A DNA stretch of 64,000 bases, from positions 62,001 to 126,000 of the forward strand of contig NZ_CADIJV010000008.1 in NCBI RefSeq assembly GCF_902859765.1, given 5' to 3'. A program made the translations under genes and the position numbers. Under the pieces are notes generated by a model. That model saw nothing but the letters and a program-made list of their open reading frames with translations, searched no databases and was not told where the DNA came from. The stretch is from Achromobacter pulmonis. Lineage in GTDB: Bacteria > Pseudomonadota > Gammaproteobacteria > Burkholderiales > Burkholderiaceae_B. This document shows, piece after piece, positions 46,074 to 64,000 of the stretch. Within the stretch, counting starts at the first letter, position 1. Each line of letters begins with the position of its first letter.

Positions 46074-46460
46074 CTCGGACTCCTTTGGATATTTTGATGA
46101 GGGGGTGCGCCGTTCGACCTTGAAGCCCGGCAACTTCCCGGGGGGCGCTAGACGGCGGCTTGTGAACGCATAATAGCCGCATGTTTGTGGCAAAACGATT
46201 GAAAATCGTGACATTTGTGCGCAACATTCCGACGCAATCCGTTTTACCCGATGGCACAAGGTGAGCGAGCACTCACAACGCAGGAACGGCGCGGCCTGGC
46301 GGCCCGCGAAGGGCGCAAGAACAGGCTGGACAAGGCTTGCGACGAGGGACGGGAAAACCCTGATCCGGGTTTTCCCCAGGGCGGATGACCCGCTGCCGAA
46401 GGCGGCCCGCGCCGGGCGCCGCGGCCCCCGACACGGTGGCCGGCGGGCCGGCCGTGGCGC
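46074..46460. other. 387-bp gap with a stable 10-bp hairpin
   Basis: No gene supported. A perfect inverted repeat GGGAAAACCC / GGGTTTTCCC (46351-46360 and 46367-46376) with a 6-base loop is the only clear structure; there is no T run on either side. The first 200 bp are A/T-richer and probably carry the YbdK gene promoter. Confidence 0.5.
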
Positions 46461-47930: not shown

Positions 47931-47982
47931 GCGGCCTCCCCGGCCGCCGCCGGTCCGTCGGGATGCGGGAAGCGCGGGCTCA

Positions 47983-49360
47983 TCAGAAGAACGACGCCGA
48001 CACTTGGAACAGTTTTTCCACGCGCGGCATCTGCTTGCGCGAGGGCACGAAGACGATGACGTGGTCGTCGGTCTCGATCACGGTATCGGCATCCGGCAGG
48101 ATGATCTCGTCCTCGCGCACCAGCGCGCCGATGCTGGCGCCCTTGGGCAGGCTGATCTCGCCCACCTTGCGGCCCACCACCTTGGAAGTGGAGCGATCGC
48201 CATGGGCGATGGCCTCCAGGGCCTCGGCCACGCCCTGGCGCAGCCGGTGCACCGCCGCCACGTCGCCGCGCCGCACGTGGCGCAGCAGTTCGCTCATGGT
48301 GGCCTGCGACGGCGACACCGCGATGTCGATATGGCTGCCCTGCATCAGTTCGCCATAGGCCTGGCGATTGATCAGCGCGATCACCTTGCGCGCGCCCAGC
48401 CGCTTGGCCAGCAGCGACGACATGATGTTGTCCTCGTCGTCGCTGGTCAGGGCCAGCCAGGTGTCCATGTCTTCGATGTTCTCGCGTTCCAGCAGGGCCT
48501 CGTCGGTGCCGCTGCCGTGCAGCACCAGCACGCTGTCGGGCAATTGCGTGGCCAGGTACTCGCAGCGCTTGAGGTCGCGCTCGATGATGCGCACGCTGTA
48601 GTTTTCCTCGGCCAGCGCGCGCCAGCCGCAGGCCGATGTTGCCGCCGCCGGCGATCATCACGCGGCGCACGGCCTTTTCGGCTTCGCGCAACTGCCGCAC
48701 GGCGCGGCGCGCGTGGCGCGTGTCCACCACCAGCACCGCCTCGTCGCCCGGCGCGAGCACGGTGCCGGCCCCGGCCCGCAGCGGCCGGCCGCCACGCAGC
48801 ACGTCGATCACGCGGGCGGTGACGTCAGGCCAGACCTCGCGCAGCTTGTCGACGGGATGGTGCGCCATGGGGCTGCCATGCCCCACCCGCACGGTCACCA
48901 CGCTGACCCTGCCCTCGGCGAATTCGACCACCTGCAGCGCCTCTGGGAATTCGATCAGGCTCTGCAGGTAGGTGGTGACGCTGCGCTCGGGACTGATGAT
49001 GGCGTCGATGCAGAAGCCTTCTTCGCTCATCAGTTCCGGGTATTCGGAGAACTCGCCCGAGCGGATGCGCGCGATGCGGCGCGGGATGTTGAACAGCTGG
49101 CGGGCGATCTTGCAGGCCACCATGTTGGCGGCGTCGGACGCGGCGCAGGCGATCAGCAGGTCGGTGTCGGCCGCGCCGGCGCCTTCCAGCACCGACACCT
49201 GCGAACCGTCGCCATGGACGACGCGCAGGTCGAAGTGTTCTTGCAGGTATTGGAGCTGGGAGGGATCGGAATCGATCACCGTGATGTCGTTCTGCTCGGA
49301 CACCAGGTTTTCAGCCACGCTGGTGCCGACACGACCAGCGCCGATGATCAGGATCTTCAT
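47983..49360 (-). pseudogene. trkA: trkA with a frameshift in a GC dinucleotide run
   Basis: TrkA is the cytoplasmic NAD-binding regulator of Trk, with two RCK domains. The first half reads normally from ATG at 49360 (MKILIIGAGRVGTSVAENLV, then about 230 residues). The second half (RIIERDLKRCEYLATQLPDS to VEKLFQVSASFF) is in another frame. The break falls in (GC)4 at 48615-48622, in the GGGNIGLRLAR motif that opens RCK domain 2. Adding one GC pair restores a full TrkA of about 459 residues. Left unrepaired, the frame runs on with Arg/Ala-rich nonsense to 47927. It is either a true mutation, a slippage variant or a sequencing error. Confidence 0.88.
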
Positions 49361-50046
49361 GCGCCTCGCTTGCGCGCGGACTCGATGCCCAATTGCTTGA
49401 GCTTGCGATAGAGATGGGTGCGCTCGAGGCCGGTGCGTTCGGATACCCGGGTCATGCTATGGCTTTCGCGGACCAGGTGATATTCGAAATAGATGCGCTC
49501 GAACTCGTCACGCGCCTCACGCAGCGGCTGGTCCAGCGAGATGCTGCCCAACTGGCCATTGGCGGTGACGGGGATCTCGTTGACGGGCGCGGCCGACAGC
49601 GTCGGCGGGTCGAGCTCGTCTTCGAGCGCCACGGCGGCGCTGGCCGTCGCCGGCGCCGCCACGGGCACCGGATGCGGCACCCGGCCGCGGGCCAGGCCGG
49701 CGGCCACGGTCTTGAGCAGGCGTTGCAGCGTGATCGGCTTTTCGAGGAAATCCATGGCGCCGATGCGGGTGGCCTCGACCGCCGTGTCGATGGTGGCGTG
49801 GCCGCTCATCATGATGACGGGCATGTCCAGCAGCCCCTGCGAGCCCCATTCCTTGAGCAGGCTGACGCCATCCGTGTCCGGCATCCAGATGTCCAGCAGC
49901 ACCAGATCGGGACGCATGCGAAGGCGCGCGGCGCGCGCCTGCGCCGCGTTTTCGGCCAATTCGACCGTGTGTCCTTCGTCGTAAAGGATTTCCGACAAAA
50001 GCTCGCGAATACCGACTTCGTCGTCAACCACCAGAATTCTGGCCAT
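49357..50046 (-). CDS. NtrX-like response regulator without AAA+ domain
   Basis: A 229-residue regulator. Receiver domain residues 1-120 with acidic pair VVDDE, phospho-acceptor Asp in LVLLDIWMP and Lys in FLEKPI. An Ala/Pro-rich linker follows, then a Fis-type HTH (SMTRVSERTGLERTHLYRKLKQLGI). The sigma-54 AAA+ domain found in alpha-proteobacterial NtrX is absent, so it cannot drive sigma-54 promoters in the usual way. It overlaps trkA by 4 bp and follows the ntrY-type kinase. Confidence 0.9.
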   Translation of the reverse strand: MARILVVDDEVGIRELLSEILYDEGHTVELAENAAQARAARLRMRPDLVLLDIWMPDTDGVSLLKEWGSQGLLDMPVIMMSGHATIDTAVEATRIGAMDFLEKPITLQRLLKTVAAGLARGRVPHPVPVAAPATASAAVALEDELDPPTLSAAPVNEIPVTANGQLGSISLDQPLREARDEFERIYFEYHLVRESHSMTRVSERTGLERTHLYRKLKQLGIESARKRGA

Positions 50047-50057
50047 AAAGCATCCAC

Positions 50058-52379
50058 CTATTGCGTAGCCGCATTATCCTTTTCTTGCGCGGTCGCGCCC
50101 ATAGTATCGGCCCCGGGCGCAAGCCGGGTCAACAAGATGGAAATCCGCGCGCCTCCTTCCTTGCGATTGGCAAGGTCGATCCGACCGCCGTGCTCTTCCA
50201 CTATCTTGCGCACGATTGCCAATCCTAACCCAGTCCCGTGGGACTTGGTGGTGACGTAGGGCTCGAAGGCGCGCTGCATGACCTGCGGCGGGAAGCCCGG
50301 GCCCGTATCGGCAACCGTGAAACGCAGGGCCTGCTGGTCGGCGCGGTCGGGCTGCTCGCTGCGCATCAGCTGGGTCGTGACGCTGACCCCGCCCTTGCCG
50401 CCCTGCTCGGCGATCGCATCGCGGGCATTGGACAACAGGTTGTGGATCACCTGCCGCAACTGGGTCGGGTCGCCTTCGATGGCCGGCAGCCCCGCGCCCA
50501 GATTGACGTCCAGGTTCAGCGCCTGGCCGGGCGCCGATCGCACCGAGGTGCCGCCATCCGGCTCCCACCCATACAGCGACAGCACGTCGGCCACCAGCGC
50601 GTTGAAGTCGATGCGCTGCATCACCGCGGGCGGCGTGCGGGCGTATTCGCGGAAATCGTCCACCATCTGCTTGAGCGAGGCCACCTGGTTGACGATGGTG
50701 TTGGTGGAACGCTCGACGATCTGCGCCTCGGCCGGCGGCAGCTTGCCTTCCAGCTTCATCGCCAGGCGCTCGGCGGACAGCTGGATCGGCGTCAGCGGGT
50801 TCTTGATTTCATGGGCCAGGCGGCGCGCCACCTCGCCCCAGGCTACCGTGCGGTTGGCCGAAATGACTTCGGTGATGTCGTCGAACACCACCAGGTAGCC
50901 GTTGCCGCGGCCGTCCACCCGCAGGTGGGTGCCGCGCGCCAGCAGCGTGAGCGCCTGCGGTCCGTTGGGCGTGTCGCCCTGCTTGGGCGCGATCTCGAAC
51001 TGCTGCTGCCAGTGCTGGCGCTCGGAGCCCACCGCCGCGTGGGTGGAAAACGCCTGCCGCACGATGTTGGCGAATTCGAGCATGCCGTCCACGGTCTCCA
51101 GCGGCCGCCCGATCACCGAGCGCAGGTCGGCCTGCAGGATGGTCTGCGCGCCCTGGTTGACGGTGGTGACGCGGAACGCCTCGTCAAACACCAGCACCCC
51201 GGAGGACAGGTTCGACAGCACGCTCTCCAGATAGACGTTGGAGCGTTCGAGTTGCTGGCGGTTGCTCTCGACCATGCGGCGGGCCTCGTCGAGCTGGCGC
51301 GTCATGGCATTGAAGGAGCGGGTCAGCTGGCCGACTTCGTCGCGCTCCGGCGGCTCGGGCAGCGGCCGGTAGTCGCCCACGCCCACGGCCTGGGTGCCGC
51401 CGGCCAGGCTGAGCAGCGGCCGCACCAGCCGCTTGGACAACGACAACGCCACGGCGATGGCGCCGAACGCGGCCAGCAGCAGCGCCAGCGTCAGCGTGAT
51501 GCCATAGAGCTTGCGCAGGCCCAGCCGCGACAGCGCCAGCTCCTGGTAGTCGCGAAAGCCCTGCTGCACCAGATTGGCGTTGTGCGCGATCTGCTCCGGC
51601 ACCGGCTGCAGCAGTTGCAGCCAGCGCGGCTCGGAAGCCGCGCCCAGCAGGTTGTCATAGCGGTCCGGGCCGGTCAGCGGAATCACCACGCGCAGATGCA
51701 GCCCGCCGTCCATCCCGGGCTTGACCGGATCGTCGGCCTCGGCCGCCGAGTAGCCGCGCGACAGCCGCAGCTGGTTCATTACGGTGGACGGCGGCATGGC
51801 CGGCAGCAACTGGCCGTACTGGCTGGTGGAAAACGCCACCATGCGGCCGCTGCCGGTGAAGACCATGGCTTCCTGCACGCCGTTGGCCTCGCGCAGGCGG
51901 GTCAGCGCCAGCGTTACGCCGGTATCGGAGTTGCGGTTCAGCTCCGCGGCCATCGAGCGCGCCCGCGCGTCCAGGTCGGCCAGTTGCGAATCGAGCGCGG
52001 CCCGGCCCAGGTTCAGGCCGGCCTCCAGCGCGCTGTCGACCCGCACGTTGAACCAGGATTCGATCGAGCGCGACATGAACTGCACCGAGACGATGTAGAT
52101 CAAGGCGCCAGGCACCACGCCGATCAGGGCGAACGCCAGCGAAAACCTGGCGGTGAGCCGGGCGCCGAATTGCCGGCGGCGGATCTGCCGCGCCAGCCGC
52201 ACCGTCAGCGCCACCACCCAGACGAACAGCGCCAGGGCGAAGATGCCGTTGAGAATCAGCAATATGTCGTAGTAGCGCGCAAAGCGCGAGGCATTGCCGG
52301 TGGACCACGCCAGCAAGCCCAGCAACGCCAGGCCGCTCACGGCGCCAACCATCAAGGCCAGCCGAAGCAACAGCCTCAT
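50058..52379 (-). CDS. ntrY: NtrY-like sensor histidine kinase
   Basis: A 773-residue membrane kinase. Several N-terminal membrane helices (LMVGAVSGLALLGLLAW, LLILNGIFALALFVWVVAL) plus a periplasmic part, a HAMP region (SKRLVRPLLSLAGGTQAVG), a PAS domain (LESVLSNLSSGVLVFDEAF), the H box LAHEIKNPLTPIQLSAERL, N box LLSNARDAI and G boxes ADTGPGFP and GTGLGLAIV. It should phosphorylate the NtrX-like regulator encoded 11 bp downstream. Its start overlaps the DUF4390 gene. Confidence 0.92.
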   Translation of the reverse strand: MRLLLRLALMVGAVSGLALLGLLAWSTGNASRFARYYDILLILNGIFALALFVWVVALTVRLARQIRRRQFGARLTARFSLAFALIGVVPGALIYIVSVQFMSRSIESWFNVRVDSALEAGLNLGRAALDSQLADLDARARSMAAELNRNSDTGVTLALTRLREANGVQEAMVFTGSGRMVAFSTSQYGQLLPAMPPSTVMNQLRLSRGYSAAEADDPVKPGMDGGLHLRVVIPLTGPDRYDNLLGAASEPRWLQLLQPVPEQIAHNANLVQQGFRDYQELALSRLGLRKLYGITLTLALLLAAFGAIAVALSLSKRLVRPLLSLAGGTQAVGVGDYRPLPEPPERDEVGQLTRSFNAMTRQLDEARRMVESNRQQLERSNVYLESVLSNLSSGVLVFDEAFRVTTVNQGAQTILQADLRSVIGRPLETVDGMLEFANIVRQAFSTHAAVGSERQHWQQQFEIAPKQGDTPNGPQALTLLARGTHLRVDGRGNGYLVVFDDITEVISANRTVAWGEVARRLAHEIKNPLTPIQLSAERLAMKLEGKLPPAEAQIVERSTNTIVNQVASLKQMVDDFREYARTPPAVMQRIDFNALVADVLSLYGWEPDGGTSVRSAPGQALNLDVNLGAGLPAIEGDPTQLRQVIHNLLSNARDAIAEQGGKGGVSVTTQLMRSEQPDRADQQALRFTVADTGPGFPPQVMQRAFEPYVTTKSHGTGLGLAIVRKIVEEHGGRIDLANRKEGGARISILLTRLAPGADTMGATAQEKDNAATQ

Positions 52380-52966
52380 GAGGGGTCTTTCTCCTTGTCA
52401 CCCAGCGTGAACGAGAAATCGGTCCAGGGAGTGCCCTGGATCCACGAGCTGCTGTTCAGGGCGTTGACCTGGAATGGGCGCGGCAGCAACGACGTATCCA
52501 GCCGCAGCCGGAACTGGCCGCCATACACCACGCCCTCGTCGAAATCATCGGCATCCGCCACCTGCCAGTTGCGGACATGGCGGATGACGCTCATGGCGTC
52601 GTCCAGTGACGCCACCGGGAACGTCAACTCGCCGACGCCGGCGCGCCACTGGCGGGTCAGCGCGTTGTAGATCACCCGCCAGGTGCGGGAAGTGTCCACC
52701 AGCGACTTGTCGAACCACCACCAGCGTTCGCGCGTGATGGTCAGGTCGGCGGTGAAATACAGCGGCACGCCGCGTTGGGCGGCATCGCGCAATTGCTGAT
52801 TCAGTTCGAATTCGATGTCGGCGTCGATTTCAAGCTTTTCGCCACGCACGACGGGTTCGACACGCACCACCTTCGGTTCGGCCCCGTGTGCCTGACCGGC
52901 CGGCGCCAAAGACAGCGCGGCGGATGCGAACAATAACCCCAGAAATAAGCGTGAAATGATGGACAT
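52376..52966 (-). CDS. DUF4390-type exported protein
   Basis: A 196-residue protein with a signal peptide (LFLGLLFASAALSLAPAGQA). Mature segments such as GEKLEIDADIEFELNQQLRDAAQRGVPLYFTADL and WWWFDKSL are typical of the conserved exported family found between rsmB and ntrY in beta-proteobacteria. The function is unknown; tight coupling to the kinase gene (4-bp overlap) suggests a role with NtrYX. Confidence 0.8.
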   Translation of the reverse strand: MSIISRLFLGLLFASAALSLAPAGQAHGAEPKVVRVEPVVRGEKLEIDADIEFELNQQLRDAAQRGVPLYFTADLTITRERWWWFDKSLVDTSRTWRVIYNALTRQWRAGVGELTFPVASLDDAMSVIRHVRNWQVADADDFDEGVVYGGQFRLRLDTSLLPRPFQVNALNSSSWIQGTPWTDFSFTLGDKEKDPS

Positions 52967-53005
52967 ACGACACCGAAACCCTGTCTTGCCCCTATTCTTG
53001 GCGAT

Positions 53006-54343
53006 TCAGGACTGCTTGGCAAACAAGGCGTAGAAAAAGCCGTCGTGCTGTGCCGCGGGTGTTGCATCGACCGCAACTGGCAGCAGTTGGCCCGGCGCTT
53101 CCAGCCGCGTGGCGTCGGGATGGCGCTGCAGGAACTCAAGCGCCTGGCGCGTGCCTTCGATCGGGAATACCGAGCAGGTGACATACAGCAGGCGGCCGCC
53201 CGGCGCCACGGTGCGCCAGAGCGCATCCAGGATGCGGGCCTGCACCGTCGCGGTGCGGCGCAGGTCGTTCTCGCGGCGCAGCCAGCGGATGTCGGGGTGG
53301 CGCCGCACGATGCCCGAGGCGGTGCACGGCACGTCCGCCAGCACCGCGTCGAACGGTTGGCCGTCCCACCAGGCGTCCAGGTCGGCGGCGTCGGCGGCGC
53401 GCAGGCGCACCCGCTCGCCGGCCAGGCCGAGCCGGTCCAGGTTCTGGCCGACGCGGGCCAGGCGGTCGGCGTCGGCATCCAGCGCCAGCAGGTCGATGTC
53501 GGCCAATTCCAGCAGGTGGGCGGTCTTGCCGCCGGGCGCGGCGCAGGCGTCCAGCACCCGCATGCCGTCCTGGGGCGCCAGCAGCTCGGCGGCCAACTGG
53601 GCGCCGGCGTCCTGCACCGACCACCAGCCCTCGGCAAAGCCCGGCAACTGGGTCACCGGACGCGGCGTGGCCAGCACCAGGCCGGCCGCGCCCACCGCTT
53701 CGGCCGCCAGGCCGGCGTCCTGGAACGCCGCCAGCACCTGCTCGCGGCTGGCGCGGCGGCGATTGACGCGCAGCGTCAGCGGCGCCGGCAAATTGGCCGC
53801 CCGCAGGACGTCCTGCCATTGCTGCGGATAGGCCACGCGCAAGAGCTTGACCCACCAGCCGGGGTGGTTCCATTCGGCCTCGGGGCTGTCGGCCACCGCG
53901 GCGTCAAGGGCCGTCCGCTCGCGCAGGAAGCGGCGCAGGCAGGCATTGAGCAGCCCCTTGAACGCCGCCAGGCTGCGGTGCTTGGCCGTCGCCGTGACGG
54001 CCTGGTCCACCACTGTGTGCGGGGCGTATACCGGCATGCCCGGCAACGCCGCGGCGGCCTCGCCCTCGGCCTTGAGCAGAGTCAGCGACACCAGCAGCAG
54101 CGATTCGAACAGCACATTCGGATAACGCTGCACCAGCTCGCGCCCGACGGCATCGGCCCAACCCAGGTAGCGCATGGCGTGAAACGATACGGCCTGCGTG
54201 GCGGGACGCAGCCCGCCGTCGACGTCGGCCAGCGCCTCGGTCAGCGAGCGGCCGTCCAGGACGTCCTGCACCACCTGCGCGCTGGAAAGCAGGATGGCGG
54301 ACAGCGGCGGGGCCAGATGAGGGGGGTCGGAACGCGTGGACAT
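53006..54343 (-). CDS. rsmB: 16S rRNA (cytosine(967)-C5)-methyltransferase RsmB
   Basis: A 445-residue enzyme. An N-terminal NusB-like RNA-binding domain (about residues 15-160, LSAILLSSAQVVQDVLDG, AFKGLLNACLRRFLRER) is followed by the Rossmann methyltransferase: VLDACAAPGGKTAHLLEL (motif I), FDAVLADVPCTASGIVRRHPD (motif IV, with Pro-Cys) and LLYVTCSVFPIEG (motif VI with catalytic Cys). It opens the rsmB-DUF4390-ntrY-ntrX-trkA-trkH operon. Confidence 0.93.
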   Translation of the reverse strand: MSTRSDPPHLAPPLSAILLSSAQVVQDVLDGRSLTEALADVDGGLRPATQAVSFHAMRYLGWADAVGRELVQRYPNVLFESLLLVSLTLLKAEGEAAAALPGMPVYAPHTVVDQAVTATAKHRSLAAFKGLLNACLRRFLRERTALDAAVADSPEAEWNHPGWWVKLLRVAYPQQWQDVLRAANLPAPLTLRVNRRRASREQVLAAFQDAGLAAEAVGAAGLVLATPRPVTQLPGFAEGWWSVQDAGAQLAAELLAPQDGMRVLDACAAPGGKTAHLLELADIDLLALDADADRLARVGQNLDRLGLAGERVRLRAADAADLDAWWDGQPFDAVLADVPCTASGIVRRHPDIRWLRRENDLRRTATVQARILDALWRTVAPGGRLLYVTCSVFPIEGTRQALEFLQRHPDATRLEAPGQLLPVAVDATPAAQHDGFFYALFAKQS

Positions 54344-54472
54344 GGCAGCAAATAAGAGGATAAGACCGCTATGGTAGCCCGGCGCGGCCCGCCGGCCCTG
54401 GCGCCACCCGCGTCCGACGCTGGACGAACCGGACCGGGCGCGTCACACTGGCCGCTTGCCACGGAGCCCGCC

Positions 54473-55105
54473 ATGTCCACCACTACGCTGCTGTTGTTCA
54501 TCCTGGCCTCGGCCGTCGCCATCGTGACGCCCGGCCCCACCGTGCTGCTCGCCATGAGCAATGGCTCGCGCCATGGCGTGCGCGCCGCCTGCTGGGGCAT
54601 GGGCGGCGCGGTGCTGGCCGACTTCATCCTGGTGGGCGCGGTGGCCTCCGGCCTGGGCGTGGTGCTGGCCGCTTCCGAGGTGGCCTTCCATGTCATCAAG
54701 TGGGCGGGCGCCGCCTATCTGGCCTACCTGGGCTGGAAGATGCTGCGCTCGAACGCCGCGCTGGTGCTACCGGCCGCCGACCCCGGCGCCGCCCGGCCGA
54801 AGGGCCTCAAACTGTGCCTGCGCAGCTTCGTGGTGGCGCTGACCAACCCGAAATTGCTGCTGTTCATGTCCGCCTTCCTGCCCCAGTTCATCAACACCCA
54901 GGCGCCCCTGCTGCCGCAATACGCCACCGCGGCCGCCGTGCTGGCGCTGATGAACATCGCCACCATGCTGGCCTACGCCACCCTGGGGGCGCAACTGGTG
55001 CGAGCCTTTCGCGGCTCGGGCCTGCGCTGGCTGAACCGGGCCTGCGGTTCGGTCATGATCGGACTGGCCGGCACCCTGGCGCTGTACCGCCGCAGCGGCC
55101 CCTGA
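54473..55105 (+). CDS. LysE/RhtB-family amino-acid exporter
   Basis: A 210-residue inner-membrane protein with about six helices. Family words: AIVTPGPTVLLAMSNGSRHG near the N-terminus, AGAAYLAYLGWKMLRS and ALTNPKLLLFMSAFLPQFI. ATG at 54473 follows GGAG by 8 bases. It exports amino acids or related compounds; the substrate is unknown. It is the last core gene before the rimO-integrated island. Confidence 0.9.
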   Translation: MSTTTLLLFILASAVAIVTPGPTVLLAMSNGSRHGVRAACWGMGGAVLADFILVGAVASGLGVVLAASEVAFHVIKWAGAAYLAYLGWKMLRSNAALVLPAADPGAARPKGLKLCLRSFVVALTNPKLLLFMSAFLPQFINTQAPLLPQYATAAAVLALMNIATMLAYATLGAQLVRAFRGSGLRWLNRACGSVMIGLAGTLALYRRSGP

Positions 55106-55278
55106 GCGCACGGCCTGCGCGCCGGACGGCACGCCGGACGGCACGGGAAGTATTGGGGACACACAACGTCCGGCGGTTTGCCCCGGCGACCCGCTAAAAT
55201 AACGGCCCCCCGCCCTGCCGCGCTAAAATTGCGCAGTATTTGATCATTGGCGCCGGCTCGCGCCCACCGAGGTATTCC

Positions 55279-55318
55279 ATTTCTTCCCCCAAAGTCGGCT
55301 TTGTCAGCCTGGGCTGAC
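55279..55318 (+). pseudogene. 5' remnant of the original rimO
   Basis: Thirteen codons reading ISSPKVGFVSLG and then TGA, matching the start of RimO (…[11 protein letters not shown]…) codon for codon in this genome's usual GC-rich usage. GAGG lies 6 bases before an ATT at 55279, so the old gene may have started with ATT, or lost an ATG. The match to rimO stops at 55316, where island DNA begins and creates the stop. The stretch 55106-55278 is the old rimO promoter region, and 55319-55550 is non-coding island DNA in which I see no gene. Confidence 0.85.
55288..55316 (+). repeat. Left copy of imperfect direct repeat flanking the island (attL side)
   Basis: 29 bases matching 62086-62114 at 23 positions. 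Of the six differences, five are third codon positions and one gives Val/Ile. Both copies encode the same RimO N-terminal segment. The last five bases, GGCTG, are identical in both and mark the likely crossover. Confidence 0.85.
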
Positions 55319-55550
55319 CGTAGGCTAGCGAAAATATACTCATGGATATGGAGCGCAGTGGTCCGGGTTCGTCACGATCCTATGGGCAACGCGCCAGGAG
55401 CATCCTTCCGACGCTAGAAGCGGCACCCTTTGTTTAGTGTGGAAAACGGTACGCGCGTTTCGCAAATAGCCGGGAAGGATTCCCATCCCTATCATTCCTG
55501 TCGAGAGTTCGGACAAGAATGGCTTGTCTGCTCGAAACCAGGGAGAAATC

Positions 55551-55952
55551 GTGTCCTTTTTAGATCTAGTTGGCGATTTTGTAGAAACGACGTTCGAAGG
55601 TATCGGTACCGCGGTCGCTGGGGCGGCGGATGCTGTGATGCAAAATCCCGTTAAATCCATCGCTATCGGCGCTGTGACCGTGGCCAGCGGCGGGGCCGCC
55701 TTGGTCTTCGCCGGCCCTATCGCTGCGGCGGTGGGCACGACGGGCCTGTTGGGCGCGGCAAGCACGGGCACAAGCATCGCTACGCTGTCTGGCGCAGCGC
55801 TTACCAAAGCGTCGCTGGCGGCGTTGGGTGGCGGAGCCTTGGCTGCGGGAGGTGGCGGCGTGGCGGCAGGCTCCGCGGCGGTGGCTGTGGCTGGCGCCGC
55901 CCTTGGTGCGGGCGTTTCGGGTGGGGTCGCCGCGGTCACGCCTCAGGCTTGA
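55551..55952 (+). CDS. Glycine/alanine-rich hydrophobic protein, unknown
   Basis: A 133-residue protein. GTG at 55551 follows GGGAGA by 6 bases and is preferred to TTG at 55524. The N-terminal 30 residues are amphipathic (SFLDLVGDFVETTFEGIGTAVAGAA). The rest is almost only Gly, Ala, Val, Ser and Thr with many GxxxG/AxxxG steps and two or three possible membrane spans (GGAALVFAGPIAAAVGTTG; ALAAGGGGVAAG). It resembles glycine-zipper membrane proteins in composition. It may be a membrane-active effector or scaffold; no function is known. Its stop overlaps a possible TTG start of the next frame. Confidence 0.65.
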   Translation: MSFLDLVGDFVETTFEGIGTAVAGAADAVMQNPVKSIAIGAVTVASGGAALVFAGPIAAAVGTTGLLGAASTGTSIATLSGAALTKASLAALGGGALAAGGGGVAAGSAAVAVAGAALGAGVSGGVAAVTPQA

Positions 55953-56011
55953 ACACGGCTGGCGAAATCGAACCGGGCTGCCTTTCGGGCGCCCGCTTTT
56001 CTGGAATAAAT

Positions 56012-57244
56012 ATGGCCCGCGTTTCCTCAGCCCAGGTCGCTGGGCTAGACCTCATCGACAAGCTGTTCTTCAATCAGGCGCTGGTGTTCTGCTTGTTCAC
56101 GGAAGAACTCTGCTGGCTAATGGATCTTCGCGAAGACCTTGATCGCGAATTGACGAACCGACGCATACACGGCGTCCAGCGACAGGTGGTCAGGCACGGC
56201 GTCCTATGCATGATGGAAGCAGCACTGTCCGAGGACCTGCAGCTTGTTGAACAGGCGTTCCCACACCTTTCGGAAATTCCTCGTCCATTCACGGACGAAG
56301 TGCACGAAAGAGTGCGACAGTTCAATTTGGATTTTTTCGAAGGCGCAGTACTTGCCGCGCTGCACGTTCTTTACGATTGCGACAAGGAAGTGGTTATCGA
56401 AATCGCCAACACGCTCTTGAAAGGATACGAGAGCGCGCCAGTTATGGTGCGCTATCGCTTGGTGGAGCGCATGTTCTCCTTCGAATTTCTCATGTCGCCC
56501 ATAGACTGCTTTACCTGGCTGGCGAAGATGGGCGTGCTGCGTAGCGCCAAACATCCGGGGATTGCGCTAGAGGCCCGCTATCGCACCGAGTTTCTGCAGC
56601 GCCTTGCGCTCCTCTGCGTGTTGGACATGCAACGCGATAACATCTATCGCTTGATGCGACTAAGCCCATACGAAAGCTCGGGGCTAGTCGACAAAATAAA
56701 AGGTCTCACGCCTACCACAATCAAACTGCTACTTGAGCAAGAGTTCAAGGCCATGTCGGTCAATTGCCTGCCCGATCTCAAAGGAAGCTTTCCCTTCATA
56801 AGCCTGGATGATCTCGAAGACCCGAGGAAGGTCCAACGATTCTTCAGCAGCATGAACAAATATTCGACGAGGTTTCGGGTGTTTCGCGGTCCGTTGGCAA
56901 GTTGGGTGGGGCTGCTTTGCGGCGGGTGTGTGGAGGTTATGTACCGAGCACAGGAAACAAAGCCCTTGATCTATGCTGATGCGTTCAATGAAGGCAGCCT
57001 CACTCAAACGATTTCAGATGGGATGCGCGCTCGCGGATTTGAGATTTCGGCGCGGACCGTCTATGAACGTCATCGGGACTTCAAGGAGACAATTCTCTGG
57101 ATCGTGTCGACCTATTACGCATTGGCCGTACGCGTCAACGTTGCGACCCCCCCTTACCTCGCGGACATCACGTATGAGGGGTTAGCGTGCGGCTTCGATC
57201 ACGTTAAGCCGAGAGCGCGGCGCAGTGCAGAAGACCGTGCATGA
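56012..57244 (+). CDS. Unknown 410-residue island protein
   Basis: I do not recognise this protein. ATG at 56012 (MARVSSAQVAG) is chosen; the frame is open to TTG 55949. It is mainly helical, rich in Leu, Glu and Arg, with no signal peptide or clear membrane span (one short hydrophobic patch, WVGLLCGGCVEVMY). No Walker, HTH, nuclease or tyrosine-recombinase R-H-R-Y pattern is evident. Codon use is A/T-richer than in core genes. It directly follows the glycine-rich protein, so the two may act together. Confidence 0.7.
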   Translation: MARVSSAQVAGLDLIDKLFFNQALVFCLFTEELCWLMDLREDLDRELTNRRIHGVQRQVVRHGVLCMMEAALSEDLQLVEQAFPHLSEIPRPFTDEVHERVRQFNLDFFEGAVLAALHVLYDCDKEVVIEIANTLLKGYESAPVMVRYRLVERMFSFEFLMSPIDCFTWLAKMGVLRSAKHPGIALEARYRTEFLQRLALLCVLDMQRDNIYRLMRLSPYESSGLVDKIKGLTPTTIKLLLEQEFKAMSVNCLPDLKGSFPFISLDDLEDPRKVQRFFSSMNKYSTRFRVFRGPLASWVGLLCGGCVEVMYRAQETKPLIYADAFNEGSLTQTISDGMRARGFEISARTVYERHRDFKETILWIVSTYYALAVRVNVATPPYLADITYEGLACGFDHVKPRARRSAEDRA

Positions 57245-57431
57245 GCTATCGAGCGCAGATGGAGAAGAATGCAAGTGGTCCCACGTAAATCTGACCCAAA
57301 CTCGGAATCCGCTTTGGCAACCTGCATGATTTTTAACAAACCGTGTGCAGACGCCTCGCGCGAGACTGCCCGATAGTCGATAATGTGCGCTTCGGAAAAT
57401 CAGTTTAATTGCGGTATCCATTGGAGACAGC

Positions 57432-59381
57432 ATGGCCGGCTTCAACCGATCTAAGCTAGTCCGCATCATGGTGCGGAATATTGGTTGTATTGGCAACGAA
57501 GGGGTTGAGATCGAGCTCGACAACGTGGTCTGCTTGGTTGGAAAAAATAATGCGGGCAAATCCACCATCCTTCGTGCATATGAGTTAGCCAAGGGCTCCG
57601 CCAGCTTCGATATTGCCAAAGATCGCTGTCAGTACGCCCCGAAGGATCAACCGTCTGAAGTGCTCCTTGAGGTGCACATCCCTGACGGGATCGGCAACGT
57701 GGATGCCAAGTGGAAAATGTCGAAGGACGGTCACCTGATCGTCAAGAGCCGGTGGCAGTGGGCTGCCCCAAGTTTCCTGAAGGTGCGGACTACCTGGGAT
57801 CCAACGGGAGGGACTGATGGCGCGGGAGCGTGGGCAGACGACGGCAAAGCCGCGGGTGCCGATCCAGTTTTCAACTCTAGGTTACCCCGCCCGCTGCGCA
57901 TTGGATCACTTGATGACGCGGCAAAAACTGAGGACATGCTGCTCACTTTGGCGCTGGGGCCATTGCTAGCGGGATTAGAGAAAGAGCGCATTGATCCTCA
58001 GTCCGATCTCTGCAAAGCGATTGCAGGCATATCCGAACACTTGAACATTCTTAGCGGTGTTCACGAAGATCACTTCAATGTAATTGCCAGCCGTGTTGCA
58101 GCTGGCTTCAAGGGCGTTTTCCCCCGGCTGGACGTAAAGCTCACAGTAAGTGCCGCTCCGCTGGTCCCAAAGCTCGGCGAACTGATTAAAGGCGGCTCGA
58201 GCCTGACTGTCCGGGATGGAGCCGCCGAAACGGCGCTTGTTCAGCAGGGAACAGGCGCGCGGCGAGCGCTTTTTTGGTCCATGCTACAAGTTCACAACGA
58301 GCTATCACGCGATAGGGAAGTTCGACAGGAATATCGTAAACGACTGGAAAAGGACCTATCTGACGCCCAGAAGAAGGTCCCGAAAGCCAAGGAAGCAGAA
58401 AAGCAGGCTCTAGCAGACACTATTGCGTCGCTCAACGCTCAGCTTGAGGCGCATGACGAAGGGGCAGCCATTCCGGACAGTCCGGAAGACCCCGCTTTTC
58501 CTGGCTATCTGCTATTGATTGACGAACCGGAAAACGCGCTGCACCCAATGGCGGCGCGTGCGGCGCAGCGTCACTTGTACCAACTGGCAGAAAGTCCAGA
58601 TTGGCAAGTAATCATGACTACCCATTCGCCTCATTTCGTCAATCCCTTTGAGGATCACACAACCATCGTGCGACTTGAGCGGGCAGCAGACGGCGACGCA
58701 CCTCCCGTGGCCCCAAAGACTTATCGTTCTGATTGCATCCAGTTTGATGGCGACGACAAAGATCGCCTCCAAGCACTGCAGCACATTGATCCGAGCTTTT
58801 CCGAAGTGTTTTTTGGCTCGTACCCGATTCTGGTCGAAGGGGACACAGAGCATGCTGCGTTCATGTCGTCCATTCTTGAACGCCAGCATGACCTGATAGA
58901 CCGCGTTACGATCATCCGGGCGCGTGGCAAGGCGATTTTGGTACCTCTCATCAAAGTGCTGACGCACTTCAAAATTGATTTTGGGGTAGTCCACGACTCT
59001 GATTCCCCGTTTAAAAAGAACGGCCATAAGAATGGGATGTGGACTGAAAACGAGAAAATTCGCAATGCGATCGTCAACGCGCGGGGAGCAGGCCTGGCCG
59101 CTCGACATAGGATCAGCATTCCTGATTTCGAGCGCTTCTTAGGTGGGGAAGAGGAAGTCAAGGATAAGCCTCTGAACACGTACCTCGTCGTCTCAAAAGA
59201 CGACGCCATCGCTCAACAGGTGCAGAAGTTGATAGAAGAGCTTCAGTCTTCGACGCAGCATGAGCCATTCATTGAAAGCGAGCTCGGGACTGATGGCTAT
59301 TTGTCTTGGCTCGGTAGCATCGTTCAGCACTGGGCTGCGCAGAACGGACTATCGGACGATGTGAGGTTCAGGGGGGCTTGA
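57432..59381 (+). CDS. OLD-family ATP-dependent nuclease (AAA ATPase plus TOPRIM)
   Basis: A 649-residue protein. Walker A GKNNAGKST (37-45), a short helical insertion with coiled-coil character (about 300-345, RKRLEKDLSDAQKKVPKAKE), Walker B LLLIDEPE (D364, E365) and TTHSPH (H398). The C-terminal TOPRIM domain has ILVEGDTE (E469) and VVHDSDSP (D522, D524), the metal-binding residues of OLD nucleases. GGAGA precedes the ATG. OLD proteins act in phage interference (P2 Old; GajA of Gabija). No UvrD-like helicase follows, so it is not a Gabija pair. Confidence 0.92.
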   Translation: MAGFNRSKLVRIMVRNIGCIGNEGVEIELDNVVCLVGKNNAGKSTILRAYELAKGSASFDIAKDRCQYAPKDQPSEVLLEVHIPDGIGNVDAKWKMSKDGHLIVKSRWQWAAPSFLKVRTTWDPTGGTDGAGAWADDGKAAGADPVFNSRLPRPLRIGSLDDAAKTEDMLLTLALGPLLAGLEKERIDPQSDLCKAIAGISEHLNILSGVHEDHFNVIASRVAAGFKGVFPRLDVKLTVSAAPLVPKLGELIKGGSSLTVRDGAAETALVQQGTGARRALFWSMLQVHNELSRDREVRQEYRKRLEKDLSDAQKKVPKAKEAEKQALADTIASLNAQLEAHDEGAAIPDSPEDPAFPGYLLLIDEPENALHPMAARAAQRHLYQLAESPDWQVIMTTHSPHFVNPFEDHTTIVRLERAADGDAPPVAPKTYRSDCIQFDGDDKDRLQALQHIDPSFSEVFFGSYPILVEGDTEHAAFMSSILERQHDLIDRVTIIRARGKAILVPLIKVLTHFKIDFGVVHDSDSPFKKNGHKNGMWTENEKIRNAIVNARGAGLAARHRISIPDFERFLGGEEEVKDKPLNTYLVVSKDDAIAQQVQKLIEELQSSTQHEPFIESELGTDGYLSWLGSIVQHWAAQNGLSDDVRFRGA

Positions 59382-59587
59382 AAGCATGAACGGGACCAAC
59401 AGCTCACCCTCCTGTCGAAACTAGTGAAGTTGATCTTGTCTGCCGAACTATCGAACGCCGATAGCGCAGTGTCGCGCCCGTCGCGTGTTGCGCCTTTCAG
59501 CCGCCCCGGGTCAGACTCAGAGTGGCCCGCTCCAGTGGGCCTTTCCCCGGGGATATGCGAAAATTCGCTATAGATTCAGAGGGCTTT

Positions 59588-60637
59588 ATGGCAAGAAATA
59601 CCAAGATCCGTATCGCACGGCCGGATGACCGGACACTTCGGCTTGGCTCCGTATCGCTGTTTCATGGCGATGCGCTTGAGGCATACGACGAGTGGCTGGC
59701 GCCGACGGTCATCATCGCAGACGGCCCGTATGGACTGGGAAAATTTCCCGGTGAGCCTGTGACGCCCGACGGGCTGGCCGAATGGTACGCGCCTCATGCC
59801 GCTGCTTGGGCTAAGTGCGCGCAGCCATTCACGACGTTGTGGTTTTGGAATAGCGAAATAGGATGGGCAAAGGCGCATCCCGCCCTAGAGCTCAACGGTT
59901 GGCAATACGAAGAAACCGTAATCTGGGACAAGGGGATCGCCCACATTGCCGGAAACGTGAATTCCCGCACGATCCGAGGCTTACCGGTGGTCACTGAGGT
60001 CGCGGTCCGATATACGCGAAAAGCGACCTTGCCGACCCTGACGGGGCATCAACTTCCTTTCAAGGAATGGCTCCGCTATGAGTGGCAGCGCTCAGGGCTT
60101 CCACTATCGCAAAGCAACGAGGCCTGCGGTGTGAAGAACGCCGCGACGCGTAAGTACCTCACACAGTGCCATCTCTGGTACTTCCCGCCAGGGGAGGCCG
60201 TGGTGGCCATGGCCAATTGGTGCACTCGTTACGGTTCCAAGACCACAAGGCCCTATTTTTCAATCGACGGGATACATCCGCCGACGGCCGAAGCGTGGGA
60301 TAAGATGCGTGCAAAATGGACGCATGTGCACGCGCTTACAAACGTTTGGCATGACCCACCAGTGCACGGCGCAGAACGTGTGAAGAAGCCGCATGGAACT
60401 GGCTATCTTCATGCGAACCAAAAACCGATCGCTCTAATGGAGCGTCAAATAATCGCCTCTAGTGATCCTAACGATGTGGTGTGGGAGCCGTTTGGAGGAT
60501 TGATGTCGGCATCGGTAGCGGCTTTACGGTTGGGTCGGCGGGCACACGCCGCCGAGTTCAACGAGGAGTTTTTCGAAGCTGCACGTCTTCGCATCGAGGG
60601 CGAGCTCCTGCAACCAAAGTTGCAGGTGGCCGCGTGA
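59588..60637 (+). CDS. Beta-class amino-methyltransferase (DNA N4-C/N6-A)
   Basis: A 349-residue protein from ATG 59588, chosen because AGAGGG lies 4 bases upstream; in-frame ATG 59555 and GTG 59522 are weaker. The catalytic motif IV comes first (IIADGPYGLG, D45-G49) and the SAM-binding motif I comes last (VWEPFGGLMSAS, E300-G304), the order of the beta class. Both motifs are non-standard: DGPYG for DPPY and EPFGG for DPFxGSG. Between them lie a large target region and ANQKPIALMERQI (motif X-like). Its stop overlaps the start of the endonuclease gene, so it should protect the host against that enzyme. Confidence 0.87.
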   Translation: MARNTKIRIARPDDRTLRLGSVSLFHGDALEAYDEWLAPTVIIADGPYGLGKFPGEPVTPDGLAEWYAPHAAAWAKCAQPFTTLWFWNSEIGWAKAHPALELNGWQYEETVIWDKGIAHIAGNVNSRTIRGLPVVTEVAVRYTRKATLPTLTGHQLPFKEWLRYEWQRSGLPLSQSNEACGVKNAATRKYLTQCHLWYFPPGEAVVAMANWCTRYGSKTTRPYFSIDGIHPPTAEAWDKMRAKWTHVHALTNVWHDPPVHGAERVKKPHGTGYLHANQKPIALMERQIIASSDPNDVVWEPFGGLMSASVAALRLGRRAHAAEFNEEFFEAARLRIEGELLQPKLQVAA

Positions 60638-61554
60638 CAATTTCTCCCCAGCGTACCCGAGGTCCCGATCCGTCGTGGAAACATAGGGACCTATATGACA
60701 GGGTGGTTGACGCCCTTCATGCCCTTCCGGCCCGTTTTAGGACATCGCTCCGCATAGCGGGAATCAGTGCGACCGATCTATTCACGCTGAACACGCCATT
60801 AGGCGCGGCGATTGAGTCGTCCGTGGTCGAGAATCTCAACGACCTCAGGGAACTTTGGGACCCGGGGAACGAATACGACGTTTATTCGTTTGTTCGCCAA
60901 GCGCAGGTCTTTCCCGACGTTCGACTTCAGTCGAGCGCACCGGGTGTGCCAGAAGATGAACGCGTCTTGATGGGCATTGAACTCAAGGGCTGGTTCATTC
61001 TGTCCAAGGAAGGAGAGCCCTCGTTTCGATACAAGGCATCGCCGATGGTTTGCATGCCGCAGGACCTTTTGGTCGTTTATCCATGGGGGCTTGATGAGGT
61101 GATTTCGGGCGCTCCGAAGTTGCTTCGACCTTTTATCGAGGAGGCGCGGTACGCAGCGGAACATCGGAATCATTATTGGCAAGTGGTCCGAGGTCAAACC
61201 GGACCAGATGCCGAGGTTGCGCTGGCTACCGAACTGGCTCCTTACCCTGCGAAAGGTCAAAAGTTCAACGACGAGGCGGTAAAAGACAAGGGAAAGAACT
61301 TTGGTCGGGTTGCCCGCGGAGGCCTAATGACTGCCTTTATCGCAGAGCTGATGCAACAACAAATTTCCGGAATTCCGGCCATTCATTGGCAGAACTTTTT
61401 GAGAATTTTTTCCGAGGGCGCCGAGGCCAACGCTATAGAACGCAAGTTGGCCACGATGCGAACGGATGCTGAGGCAGCCGGCCTGACAGCAAATGGGTTG
61501 GAAGCGTTCGATCGGATTCAGGACGGATTACGAGACCTTCTTTCTAAGCTCTAG
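60634..61554 (+). CDS. Putative restriction endonuclease (PD-(D/E)xK type)
   Basis: A 306-residue protein starting with GTG inside the methyltransferase stop (GTGA, 4-bp overlap). A PD-(D/E)xK core is visible: FPDVRL (P94, D95), then 20 residues on GIELKGWF (E116, K118). The C-terminal half is helical and ends in DRIQDGLRDLLSKL. Gene overlap with a methyltransferase and this motif make a type II restriction enzyme the best reading. The recognition sequence is unknown, and the whole-protein family is not one I recognise. Confidence 0.75.
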   Translation: MTISPQRTRGPDPSWKHRDLYDRVVDALHALPARFRTSLRIAGISATDLFTLNTPLGAAIESSVVENLNDLRELWDPGNEYDVYSFVRQAQVFPDVRLQSSAPGVPEDERVLMGIELKGWFILSKEGEPSFRYKASPMVCMPQDLLVVYPWGLDEVISGAPKLLRPFIEEARYAAEHRNHYWQVVRGQTGPDAEVALATELAPYPAKGQKFNDEAVKDKGKNFGRVARGGLMTAFIAELMQQQISGIPAIHWQNFLRIFSEGAEANAIERKLATMRTDAEAAGLTANGLEAFDRIQDGLRDLLSKL

Positions 61555-61698
61555 CTTCGGGTTGCACCGAATACCAAATTTTCGGACGGGATATTGATCG
61601 GCTCCCTGACTATAGGAGCGCACATTAGCGTATGTAGCTCGAGCCCCCGGGCTCAGCCCGATTACTAACGGCACTCCTTTTCGCTGGTCATTTTCAAC

Positions 61699-61938
61699 AT
61701 GAACAAGCACTTAAAGAAGGGCATTAGCCAACGCGTTCGAGAGTGGTACCTAGGCAACTACGTGCCTCCACCTCCGAATGATCCAGACAGTCATGTGGTC
61801 TTCGTTAGCCCAGGGCATTACGAGCAGCCGCCGCTTGCAAAGGCAGTTAAGCTGCTCGGTGCCTTTTGGCTGAAGCACTGGCAGTGGATCACCGGCACTA
61901 TCTTGGCTGTGATCGGCATCGTTGTATCCATGAAGTGA
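61699..61938 (+). CDS. Small protein with C-terminal membrane helix
   Basis: A 79-residue protein, MNKHLKKGISQRVREWYLG at the basic N-terminus, a Pro-rich middle (VPPPPNDPDS) and a single C-terminal membrane helix (WITGTILAVIGIVVSM). Tail-anchored layout. It is separated from the endonuclease gene by 144 bp that hold only a weak hairpin. Function unknown; it could be a membrane effector or accessory protein of the island. Confidence 0.55.
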   Translation: MNKHLKKGISQRVREWYLGNYVPPPPNDPDSHVVFVSPGHYEQPPLAKAVKLLGAFWLKHWQWITGTILAVIGIVVSMK

Positions 61939-62064
61939 GGCAGGCAAGCGCGAGGGCCGCTCGTGGAGAACCGATCGAATTTTGCAGTCTATGTGTGGCG
62001 TAGGGCGGAGGTTGCCCCATCGAAGCCCGGCGCCAAACCCCTCGGATAAAATTCAGTTATTTCA

Positions 62065-63393
62065 ATGACATACAAAGTTAAACCACCGAAAGTGGGATTT
62101 ATCAGTCTTGGCTGTCCCAAAGCCCTGGTCGACTCCGAACGCATCCTGACCCAACTGCGCACCGAAGGGTATCAAGTCACGCCCGAGTACAACGACGCCG
62201 ACGTCGTGGTGGTGAACACCTGTGGTTTCATCGACAGCGCCAAGGCCGAGTCGCTGGAAGCCATCGGCGAGGCGCTGGCCGAGAATGGCAAGGTCATCGT
62301 CACCGGCTGCATGGGCGTCGAGGAATCGGTGATCCGCAACGTGCACCCCAGCGTGCTGGCCGTGACCGGCCCGCAGCAGTACGAGGAAGTGGTGCGCGCC
62401 GTGCACAATGCCGCCCCGCCCAAGAAGGACCACAACCCCTACCTGGACCTGGTGCCGCCGCAGGGCATCAAGCTGACCCCGCGCCACTACGCCTACCTGA
62501 AGATCTCGGAAGGCTGCAATCATCGCTGCAGCTTCTGCATCATCCCATCGATGCGCGGCGACCTGGTCAGCCGCCCGGTGGGCGACGTGCTGAGCGAGGC
62601 CGAACGCCTGGTCAAGGCCGGCGTCAAGGAACTGCTGGTGATCTCGCAGGACACCAGCGCCTACGGCGTGGACGTCAAGTACCGCAGCGGCTTCTGGAAC
62701 GGCCGCCCGGTGCGCACCCGCATGACCGAGCTCTGTACGGCCTTGTCCGAAATGGGCGTCTGGACGCGCCTGCACTACGTCTACCCGTACCCGCACGTGG
62801 ACGAAGTGATTCCGCTGATGGCCGAGGGCAAGATCCTGCCCTACCTGGACATCCCGTTCCAGCATGCCAGCCCGCGCATCCTCAAGGCCATGAAGCGCCC
62901 GGCGTTCGAGGACAAGACGCTGGCGCGCATCAAGAAATGGCGCGAGATCTGCCCCGACCTGACCATCCGCTCGACCTTCATCGTCGGCTTCCCCGGCGAG
63001 ACCGAGGAAGACTTCCAGTACCTGCTGGACTGGATGCAGGAAGCCCAGCTCGACCGCGTCGGCTGCTTCCAGTATTCGCCGGTGGAAGGCGCGCCCGCCA
63101 ACCTGCTCGACAACCCGGTGCCGGACGAGGTCAAGCAGGAACGCTGGGAACGCTTCATGGAAATGCAGCAGTCGATTTCGACCGCCCGCCTGGCGCGGAA
63201 AGTCGGCCGCGACATCGACGTGCTGATCGACGAAGTGGATGAAGACGGCGCCGTCGGCCGCAGCAGCGGCGATGCGCCGGAAATCGACGGCTGCGTCTAC
63301 GTCAGCTCGGAGCGCCCGCTCAAGGCCGGCGACCTGGTGCGCGCCCGCGTCACCGACGCCGACGAATACGACCTCTGGGCCGAAACGGTCTGA
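62065..63393 (+). CDS. rimO: Ribosomal protein S12 methylthiotransferase RimO (hybrid 5' end)
   Basis: A 442-residue radical-SAM enzyme that adds a methylthio group to Asp88 of ribosomal protein S12. N-terminal UPF0004 domain cysteines (ISLGCPK, VNTCGF, VTGCMG), radical-SAM cluster CNHRCSFC, and a C-terminal TRAM domain ([17 protein letters not shown]). The first 17 codons ([17 protein letters not shown]) are supplied by the island and use A/T-rich codons; from 62115 on the codons are GC-rich like the core genome. The ribosome-binding site is weak, so expression may differ from the original gene. Confidence 0.96.
62086..62114 (+). repeat. Right copy of imperfect direct repeat flanking the island (attR side)
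   Basis: The partner of 55288-55316. It encodes [10 protein letters not shown] in a different set of synonymous codons, showing that it came from a foreign rimO and was not copied from this one. Confidence 0.85.
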
Positions 63394-63431
63394 GCGTCAT
63401 GCAGGCCGGCGGCGCCCGCCGCCGGCTGCCC

Positions 63432-63749
63432 TCACGCTTCCAGCAATTTCAAACCGGCCACGCCGCCCACGATCAGCGCGATGCACGCCAGCCGCGCGAC
63501 CGACGGCGAATCGCCGAACAGCACGATCCCCAGCACCGCGATGCCCACCGAACCGATGCCGGTCCACACCGCGTAGGCGGTGCCGGCGGGCAGGTGCCGC
63601 ATCGCCAGCGTCAGCAGGAAGATGCTGCCCAGGGCCGCGGCGATGCCGATGATGCTGGGCCAGAACCGCGTCCAGCCGTCGGCGTACTTCAACGCCAGCG
63701 CCATCACGATTTCCACCGCGCTCGCGGCCAGCAGGATCCACCAGGCCAT
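63432..63749 (-). CDS. SugE/Gdx-type small multidrug resistance exporter
   Basis: A 105-residue protein with four membrane helices. WWILLAASAVEIVMALALKY carries the essential membrane Glu (residue 13), followed by LPAGTAYAVWTGIGSVGIAVLG and ARLACIALIVGGVAGLKL, the pattern of the SugE/Gdx branch (guanidinium and quaternary ammonium export). AGGGAGG precedes the ATG. No guanidine riboswitch is seen in the 95-bp leader; control by the divergent HxlR protein is more likely. Confidence 0.9.
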   Translation of the reverse strand: MAWWILLAASAVEIVMALALKYADGWTRFWPSIIGIAAALGSIFLLTLAMRHLPAGTAYAVWTGIGSVGIAVLGIVLFGDSPSVARLACIALIVGGVAGLKLLEA

Positions 63750-63792
63750 CGTGGCCTCCCTTCGATATTGGAATGCGGCCAGCTTAGGGCCT

Positions 63793-63832
63793 ATAGTTAC
63801 CAAGGCACAAGTACGCACCTTTTGGTAACTAT
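63793..63832. promoter_or_regulatory. HxlR operator between the SMR exporter and its regulator
   Basis: A perfect 11-bp inverted repeat, ATAGTTACCAA (63793-63803) and TTGGTAACTAT (63822-63832), separated by 18 bp. It sits 44 bp before the exporter and 13 bp before the HxlR ATG, so a bound dimer could block both promoters. Confidence 0.78.
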
Positions 63833-63844
63833 GAAAGGCTCACC

Positions 63845-64000
63845 ATGGCTGTCTCTTCCGCTTCCCCGGCCGACGTCTTCGACGCCGCCTGCCCGTCGCG
63901 CCGCGCGCTCGAAGTGATCTCCGGCAAATGGGTGCCGCTGGTGCTGCCGGCGTTGGCCCAGGGGCCGCTGCGCAACAACGAACTGCTGCGCAGGCTCGAC
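63845..64000 (+). CDS. HxlR-family regulator, 3' end outside window
   Basis: The first 52 codons of an HxlR-type winged-helix regulator: CPSRRALEVISGKWVPLVLPAL and GPLRNNELLRRLD match the family's N-terminal helices (usual length 110-130). AAAGG lies 6 bases before the ATG. It is divergent from the SMR exporter and probably controls it through the inverted repeat between them. The Cys in DAACPSRR is at the position used for redox or ligand sensing in some members. Confidence 0.88.
   Translation, partial: MAVSSASPADVFDAACPSRRALEVISGKWVPLVLPALAQGPLRNNELLRRLD

Follow-up and report, generated by a model that had tools for sequence, protein, structure and literature searches.

An island without a recognised recombinase at a putative serine-integrase site in the 5′ end of rimO of Achromobacter pulmonis

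The rimO gene of Achromobacter pulmonis raises a simple question, namely why its start is present twice. In the window, i.e., the whole 64,000-nt stretch analysed here (contig NZ_CADIJV010000008.1, positions 62,001 to 126,000), an old rimO start is followed by an insert of 6,798 bp (55317-62114) and then by a second start that opens the present gene. The original prediction was that an island had entered the coding start of rimO and replaced its 5′ end. We find it very probable that the site and the junction are of the serine-integrase kind. How an island without a recognised recombinase came to lie there is a harder question, and movement as a passenger of phages is a possible answer.

The split gene and its uninterrupted counterparts

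A motif for the rimO start (KVGF(V/I)SLG followed by TG), with one mismatch allowed at most, is found at only two sites in the window, 55291-55316 and 62089-62114, and the maximum in 100 shuffles was 0 occurrences. The left start reads ISSPKVGFVSLG and then a stop, and its ATG has been replaced by ATT. The right copy opens a full-length rimO of 442 aa (TIGR01125, RimO). Thus the predicted arrangement, an old start on the left and a replacement on the right, is present. Over their last 29 bases the two starts differ at six positions; read as codons, five are silent and one changes V to I, in agreement with the claim that almost all are silent. The G+C content of the insert is 0.556, against 0.677 in the left flank (45000-55278) and 0.663 in the right (62115-64000).

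In the 5′ end of rimO the crossover falls on the TG of the first Cys codon, and the reading frame is preserved by a start that the element carries. Both are features of the insertion of phage JC1, described below. From a reading of the sequence, translation of rimO now begins at 62065, within the island. We take the right copy to be a replacement start brought in by the element, with a short core in common with the left copy, rather than a duplicated repeat. A simple scan of 61500-62200 for a promoter of the new start gave no sigma-70-like match, and the island right end has no Rfam match up to E 1; the covariation term of its consensus fold is near zero. An ordinary tRNA- or tmRNA-linked element was considered and rejected, as ARAGORN found neither tRNA nor tmRNA in 48000-64000.

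Relatives without the island were expected to have a continuous rimO joining position 55316 to 62115, and this is so in all nine genomes compared. Among 43 same-genus genomes, 17 have an uninterrupted site of start class A (...ATGtcttcccccAAAGTCGGC..CTGGGCTG, followed by tcc). The joined window flanks (55217-55316 plus 62115-62314) agree with nine of these 17 at 275-295 of 300 bases. Immediately to the left of the junction 10 of 10 bases match in 9/9, with the core at the same place; to the right, 10 of 10 match in seven genomes and the other two have a single change. The remaining rimO starts in the genus, sorted by eye into classes A to E, are class B in 18 genomes (including G024), D in three, C in one, E in two (the window and G019) and another type in one (G023); in the incomplete G033 the start was not seen. 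The interval between the last matching upstream base and rimO also varies, from 655 bp to more than 15 kb at loci where both were seen. Ten proteins scanned from the upstream intervals of class B, C and D loci are mostly ordinary (kinase, amidase, transporters, regulators). These observations suggest that in rimO, a conserved gene for ribosomal modification, the upstream region and the N-terminus have been repeatedly exchanged by mobile DNA.

rimO as a target of serine-recombinase phages

The original prediction knew of no well-described element class at rimO. However such elements are in the literature. Burkholderia phage JC1 forms stable lysogens in the rimO 5′ end by means of a serine recombinase; the overlap is 18 bp, and RimO remains in frame owing to an ATG upstream (PMC9144972). 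For Variovorax, a prophage at rimO is tabulated with a serine recombinase (PMC9658991), and in Polaromonas CJ2 rimO is mentioned as a target of mobile elements (PMC4482086). Thus the rimO site and the replacement of the start are already known from phages.

The pattern GGN TGN CNN TAR, which corresponds to a rimO start with a stop at the fourth codon from the glycine, was used against a collection with one genome per species (84,980 species). Eight genomic matches were found: Achromobacter pulmonis (G019), Achromobacter sp. Root83 (G024), Bordetella genomosp. 1 (G086), Comamonas koreensis, Lampropedia aestuarii, Paraburkholderia antibiotica, P. domus and a Caballeronia. Other genomes, too, have rimO loci that are split and carry different cargo. 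The same pattern has four matches in viral contigs, one of which is the Lampropedia contig. One left-end pattern gave no matches in viral contigs; another gave six, of which four were already known and the others are L136 and L137, the last a chance match judged by its sequence.

Far ends were read for the other three viral-contig matches (G273, G274 and G275), and each has a large serine recombinase gene there. Two of the three recombinases display PF00239 and PF07508. In G275 the recombinase start is divergent to a phage-borne rimO start, which joins the host gene at TG. A tblastn search with the G274 recombinase found LPPA36, Bcep176, JC1 and Rb1 (49-67% identity, 97-98% query coverage) as well as 13 more remote records. 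Of these phages, JC1, LPPA36 and Rb1 have a coding start like that of rimO, with SLG-TG at its end; the same scan found no rimO-like start in Bcep176. In G275, G094, JC1, Rb1 and L136 the recombinase is divergent to the rimO-like start and directly beside it, and in LPPA36 the two are 1.4 kb apart with one gene between. L136, an IMG/VR contig, displays a compact attP-like stretch (about 2519-2553), in which the serine recombinase is divergent to an encoded rimO start with the sequence MNVAVRAPRIGIVSLGCP followed by a stop. The best explanation is that a family of large serine integrases recognises the rimO codons for KVGFVSLG-C and crosses over at the TG of the Cys codon.

SXT, to which the island had been likened, is of the tyrosine-integrase type. 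The likeness holds for entry at the 5′ end with replacement of the start, as the empty sites and split loci display, but not for the machinery, in that no integrase was found in the island. As both JC1 and the Variovorax prophage use a serine recombinase at rimO, the enzyme behind the insertion is most likely of the large serine type, with a TG core, and not a tyrosine integrase like that of SXT.

Ends and contents of the class E islands

The coordinates of the window island and the genes it contains are in Table 1, together with three further islands, from the same bacterial family, that share the class E start type (MTY....PKVGFISLG).

Table 1. Features of the split rimO locus in the window, and three other islands with a class E start
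Feature	Position or size	Strand	Remarks
Orphan old rimO start	55279..55316	+	Class A; ATG changed to ATT; core TG at 55315-55316, then TGA/TAG stops
Island left end	55317..55340	+	Putative serine-integrase attP-type half-site, ACCGTAGGC...TATAC; TATAC at 55335-55339, offset +19..+23 from core
Small glycine-rich protein	55551..55952	+	PADLOC candidate-defence model PDC-M09A over part of length; start codon chosen by eye
Protein of up to 431 aa	55949..57244	+	No Pfam, NCBIfam, PADLOC or PHROGs match at thresholds used
OLD-type ATPase-TOPRIM nuclease	57432..59381	+	649 aa; probable defence protein
DNA methyltransferase	59588..60637	+	N6_N4_Mtase
Probable restriction endonuclease	60634..61554	+	Overlaps methyltransferase stop; start by eye
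Small hydrophobic-tailed protein	61699..61938	+	79 aa
Conserved right-end region of class E islands	61930..62064	+	Box GTCTATGTGTGGCGTAGGG at 61987-62005
Island-borne replacement rimO start	62065..62114	+	Ends in core TG at 62113-62114
Native rimO body	62115..63393	+	
G019 island	5.3 kb		Chromate set (two ChrB-type proteins, rhodanese-like protein, chromate transporter) and NicO
G086 island	5.4 kb		PDC-M28A/B/C and Abi_C
G095 island	6.2 kb		ParA-like protein, Abi_C, NERD-helicase

The class E islands lie behind different left remnants, class A in the window, B in G019 and G086, and D in G095. The only sequence common to all four inserts is the right end, about 160-180 bp with 74-78% identity to that of the window (blastn), and no gene common to the four was found by blastn or by blastp of open reading frames (ORFs) of at least 100 aa. 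Some pairs share more: G019 and G095 share a longer right end, and G086 and G095 share an additional 992-bp stretch with 94% identity, within which the G095 insert carries a second, decayed class E right end. The 19-base box, a pattern taken from class E right ends, is present in all of them including the decayed one, which gives five exact matches in 4 of 268 family genomes and no other exact match in that set. With one mismatch there are 10 matches in nine other genomes, about equal to the 9 for a reversed-pattern control. No class E ends were found on plasmids, phages or viral contigs.

The left ends point to a serine integrase. TAWAC is at +19..+23 after the core TG in 12 of 17 cases, left junctions and phage attPs taken together, among them the four class E islands; L088 and L090, both counted in the 17, are almost copies of one another. 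A scan of 4,910 bases following the 17 cores gave one occurrence at another offset, in LPPA36; the exceptions are G024, Comamonas, Caballeronia, P. domus and Rb1, which has CAAAC. The mirror motif GTDTA, which like TAWAC was selected after these arms had been viewed, is found on the right arm in 7/7 recombinase-bearing cases, in none of nine recombinase-less islands with a known left junction, in one of three class C loci and in 0/28 native starts. Thus the window island has the left attP half-site (TATAC) and a right end without the mirror motif. The left end indicates a junction made by a serine integrase of the rimO family.

The right ends are of another character. Palindromy around the TG extends to 12-16 of 24 arm positions in five recombinase-bearing cases, whereas G030 and Comamonas, with 9 each, are not palindromic. 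Position scores of the right arm are clearly native-like in the window (27.7), G019 (21.6) and G086 (27.7), against phage scores of 1.8-2.6, and the right arms of G030 and P. domus also score native. The right ends of three of the four class E islands thus appear to resemble a regenerated attB.

The probable function of the window cargo, judged from its sequence matches, is anti-phage defence. The restriction endonuclease is assigned on a weak PADLOC REase_II match (E 5e-5) to a longer ORF, 60481-61554, and the gene product has no Pfam or NCBIfam match. A PDB search with the 431-aa protein gave only a chance-level match (E 0.8). The DNA at 61825-61947 has 89% identity to a stretch of the G030 island.

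No integration or transfer genes were recognised in the window island with Pfam, NCBIfam, PADLOC, PHROGs or recombinase similarity. In particular, the insert has no match to six phage recombinases at E<=0.05, the six island proteins have no Pfam recombinase domain, and no PF07508 match is present in the whole assembly (G000). Among the PHROGs matches of the six proteins, most of which are of unknown function, no phage structural or packaging family is named. The inserts of G019, G086, G095, G024 and G030 likewise have no match to the six recombinases at the same threshold, and the larger ORFs of G019, G086 and G095 have no Pfam recombinase domain. PF07508 is also absent from G086, G095 and G024; G019 has one, on a different contig.

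Two other loci are mosaic. In G024 (L062) a class A remnant and an element left end are combined with a class B start region that is common in the genus. The G030 island contains pieces similar to the G024 left end and to the right part of the island in the window. This related island (L054, oriented 6999-18815) is 11.8 kb long, without a recombinase match, and carries Lamassu (LmuA/B/C), a PDC-S64 protein and a large STAND-like protein. The same assembly has two equal-scoring rimO copies on separate contigs (C3 and C42).

Possible movement of the island

Cis-mobilizable elements (CIMEs) move by tandem accretion, as among the relatives of ICESt1. The reading that we favour, with a confidence just short of even, is that the window island is a passenger of this type, moved by rimO-specific serine-integrase phages through accretion. 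In this cycle the element would supply a substitute start, because recombination removes the gene's own, and rimO would stay in frame. The island right end carries an attB-like rimO start, so that a complete attB would be regenerated beside the island. A serine-integrase phage could integrate there, and excision between the outer left end of the island and the right end of the phage would take both together. Integration at another rimO would give the island a new left remnant; the phage could then leave by inner excision, and the island would stay behind with its start fused to the rimO of the new host.

The asymmetric ends fit such a cycle. Recombination-site sequences like those of a related autonomous element flank the island, with half-site and core on the left and an attB-like end on the right, and genes for integration or transfer are lacking among those recognised. 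The window displays no trace of a tandem; the second, decayed right end of G095 fits a past one. We infer both the movement by accretion and the defence role of the cargo. A broader proposal, which we hold with more reserve as a possibility, is that a family of recombinase-less defence and metal-resistance islands hitchhikes between bacteria on rimO-specific serine-integrase phages, being repeatedly picked up and dropped, with each landing renewing the rimO upstream region and N-terminus. Each island would then keep a phage half-site on the outer side and restore an attB on the inner one. If so, anti-phage genes enter by the same door as the phage, and might close it to the phage or be its competitors there.

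Several observations weigh against the passage by accretion. No excision, circle or transfer has been seen, and viral contigs yielded no element that has a class E start. Helpers look rare, with a close recombinase relative in 1 of 268 family genomes (only some of the first-look candidates were scored). The reconstructed class E junctions are non-palindromic, with 5-7 of 24 arm matches, which is chance level; thus the island ends alone are not a normal attP. Nor are right arms of recombinase-less islands uniformly attB-like: of nine, five are native, G095 is a tie, Caballeronia (L083) is slightly phage-like and G024 and Comamonas are clearly so, although the 28 native starts used in scoring are exact-pattern fits that exclude classes B and D, and the low native score of G024 may therefore be unfair.

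The simplest rival is repeated loss of the recombinase, whereby autonomous serine-integrase elements lost this gene and most others by deletion in place, and selection on RimO reverted the phage-type start toward the native one. Such a loss is seen in G027, of the same genus (L061, 7269-7385), which keeps a phage-type start beside a recombinase remnant of 39 codons and a weak 15-codon stretch; the recombinase beside the phage-type start of P. antibiotica (L112) matches in two reading frames and thus looks broken; and the starts of G093 and G097 are phage-like by position score, with no recombinase match in the insert. However a single type of right end, class E, follows host starts of three kinds, so that the loss would be needed independently several times. 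None of the four class E inserts has a recombinase remnant at E<=0.05, and a PHROGs scan of the six window proteins and four further island proteins found no phage structural family. We consider decay in place rather unlikely as the origin of these islands. A still less probable explanation is that homologous recombination within the conserved rimO body carried the class E right end into loci that various serine-integrase elements had split before. The mosaic structure of loci such as G024 and G030 speaks for exchange of this kind, but a second crossover in non-homologous cargo would be required each time, and the first 200 bp of the window rimO after the core are 97.5-98% identical to G011, G012, G020 and G040, so that no foreign tract is evident beyond the core.

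That another recombinase performs the integration, whether encoded by the island (the 431-aa protein, for example, has no family assignment) or by the host, is very improbable: no gene shared by all four class E islands was detected, the 431-aa gene is absent from the other three, and the left ends bear the serine-integrase half-site. A tyrosine-integrase island with direct repeats was rejected, as the island has no recognised integrase of that type and the two rimO starts are not copies, having only a short core in common; the tyrosine integrase gene that would mark an element of the dusA or SXT type is likewise lacking, with no integrase domain in the window island proteins.

Several known systems resemble the island in part. 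JC1 and its relatives (LPPA36, Rb1, the prophages G273-G275 and L136) share with it the rimO site, experimentally shown for JC1 only, as well as the core, the in-frame substitute start and the left half-site (with the Rb1 variant given above). However JC1 is a whole temperate phage of 61 kb with its own serine recombinase and a palindromic attP, and the island has neither of the last two. With CIMEs the island shares att-type ends, cargo and the absence of recognised integrase and transfer genes, and G095 and G030 supply a tandem trace and a mosaic. It differs in that its site belongs to a serine integrase, which makes the ends asymmetric, and in that a protein gene gains a new start; mobilization is here a proposal. 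The pseudo-SCC (staphylococcal cassette chromosome) elements at rlmH of staphylococci are recombinase-less members of a serine-recombinase island site and form tandem composites, but they belong to rlmH and the Ccr system.

Serine-recombinase sites occupied by islands without a recombinase are already known, for example in Dehalococcoides (PMC3146451): 15 islands at ssrA have no integration module, lie alongside related islands that have one, and were suggested to be possibly cis-mobilizable. There the gene is different, the recombinase is called a CcrB homolog and the ssrA repeats are direct. At dusA, islands and prophages likewise replace the 5′ end of a modification gene that is conserved and may regain its function, but they use a dedicated integrase family (PMC4482086), none of which was found in the window island. 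Searches of open-licence PubMed Central found no paper on recombinase-less islands at rimO. The split rimO start is explained by the present analysis as the landing scar of a serine integrase, and the accretion cycle offers a testable route for the mobility of defence genes that have no recombinase; the locus also bears on start-site annotation and on the discovery of natural serine-integrase sites.

Two neighbouring loci should also be noted. In G027 the recombinase remnant is divergent to the phage-type start, and an amidase and a major facilitator superfamily transporter lie upstream. In G024 (L062, 9929-10813) an 884-bp insert with helix-turn-helix-like reading frames lies between an intact-looking class A start and the class B start; its later part is common to many genus members, and the first 240-310 bases or so are mostly not.

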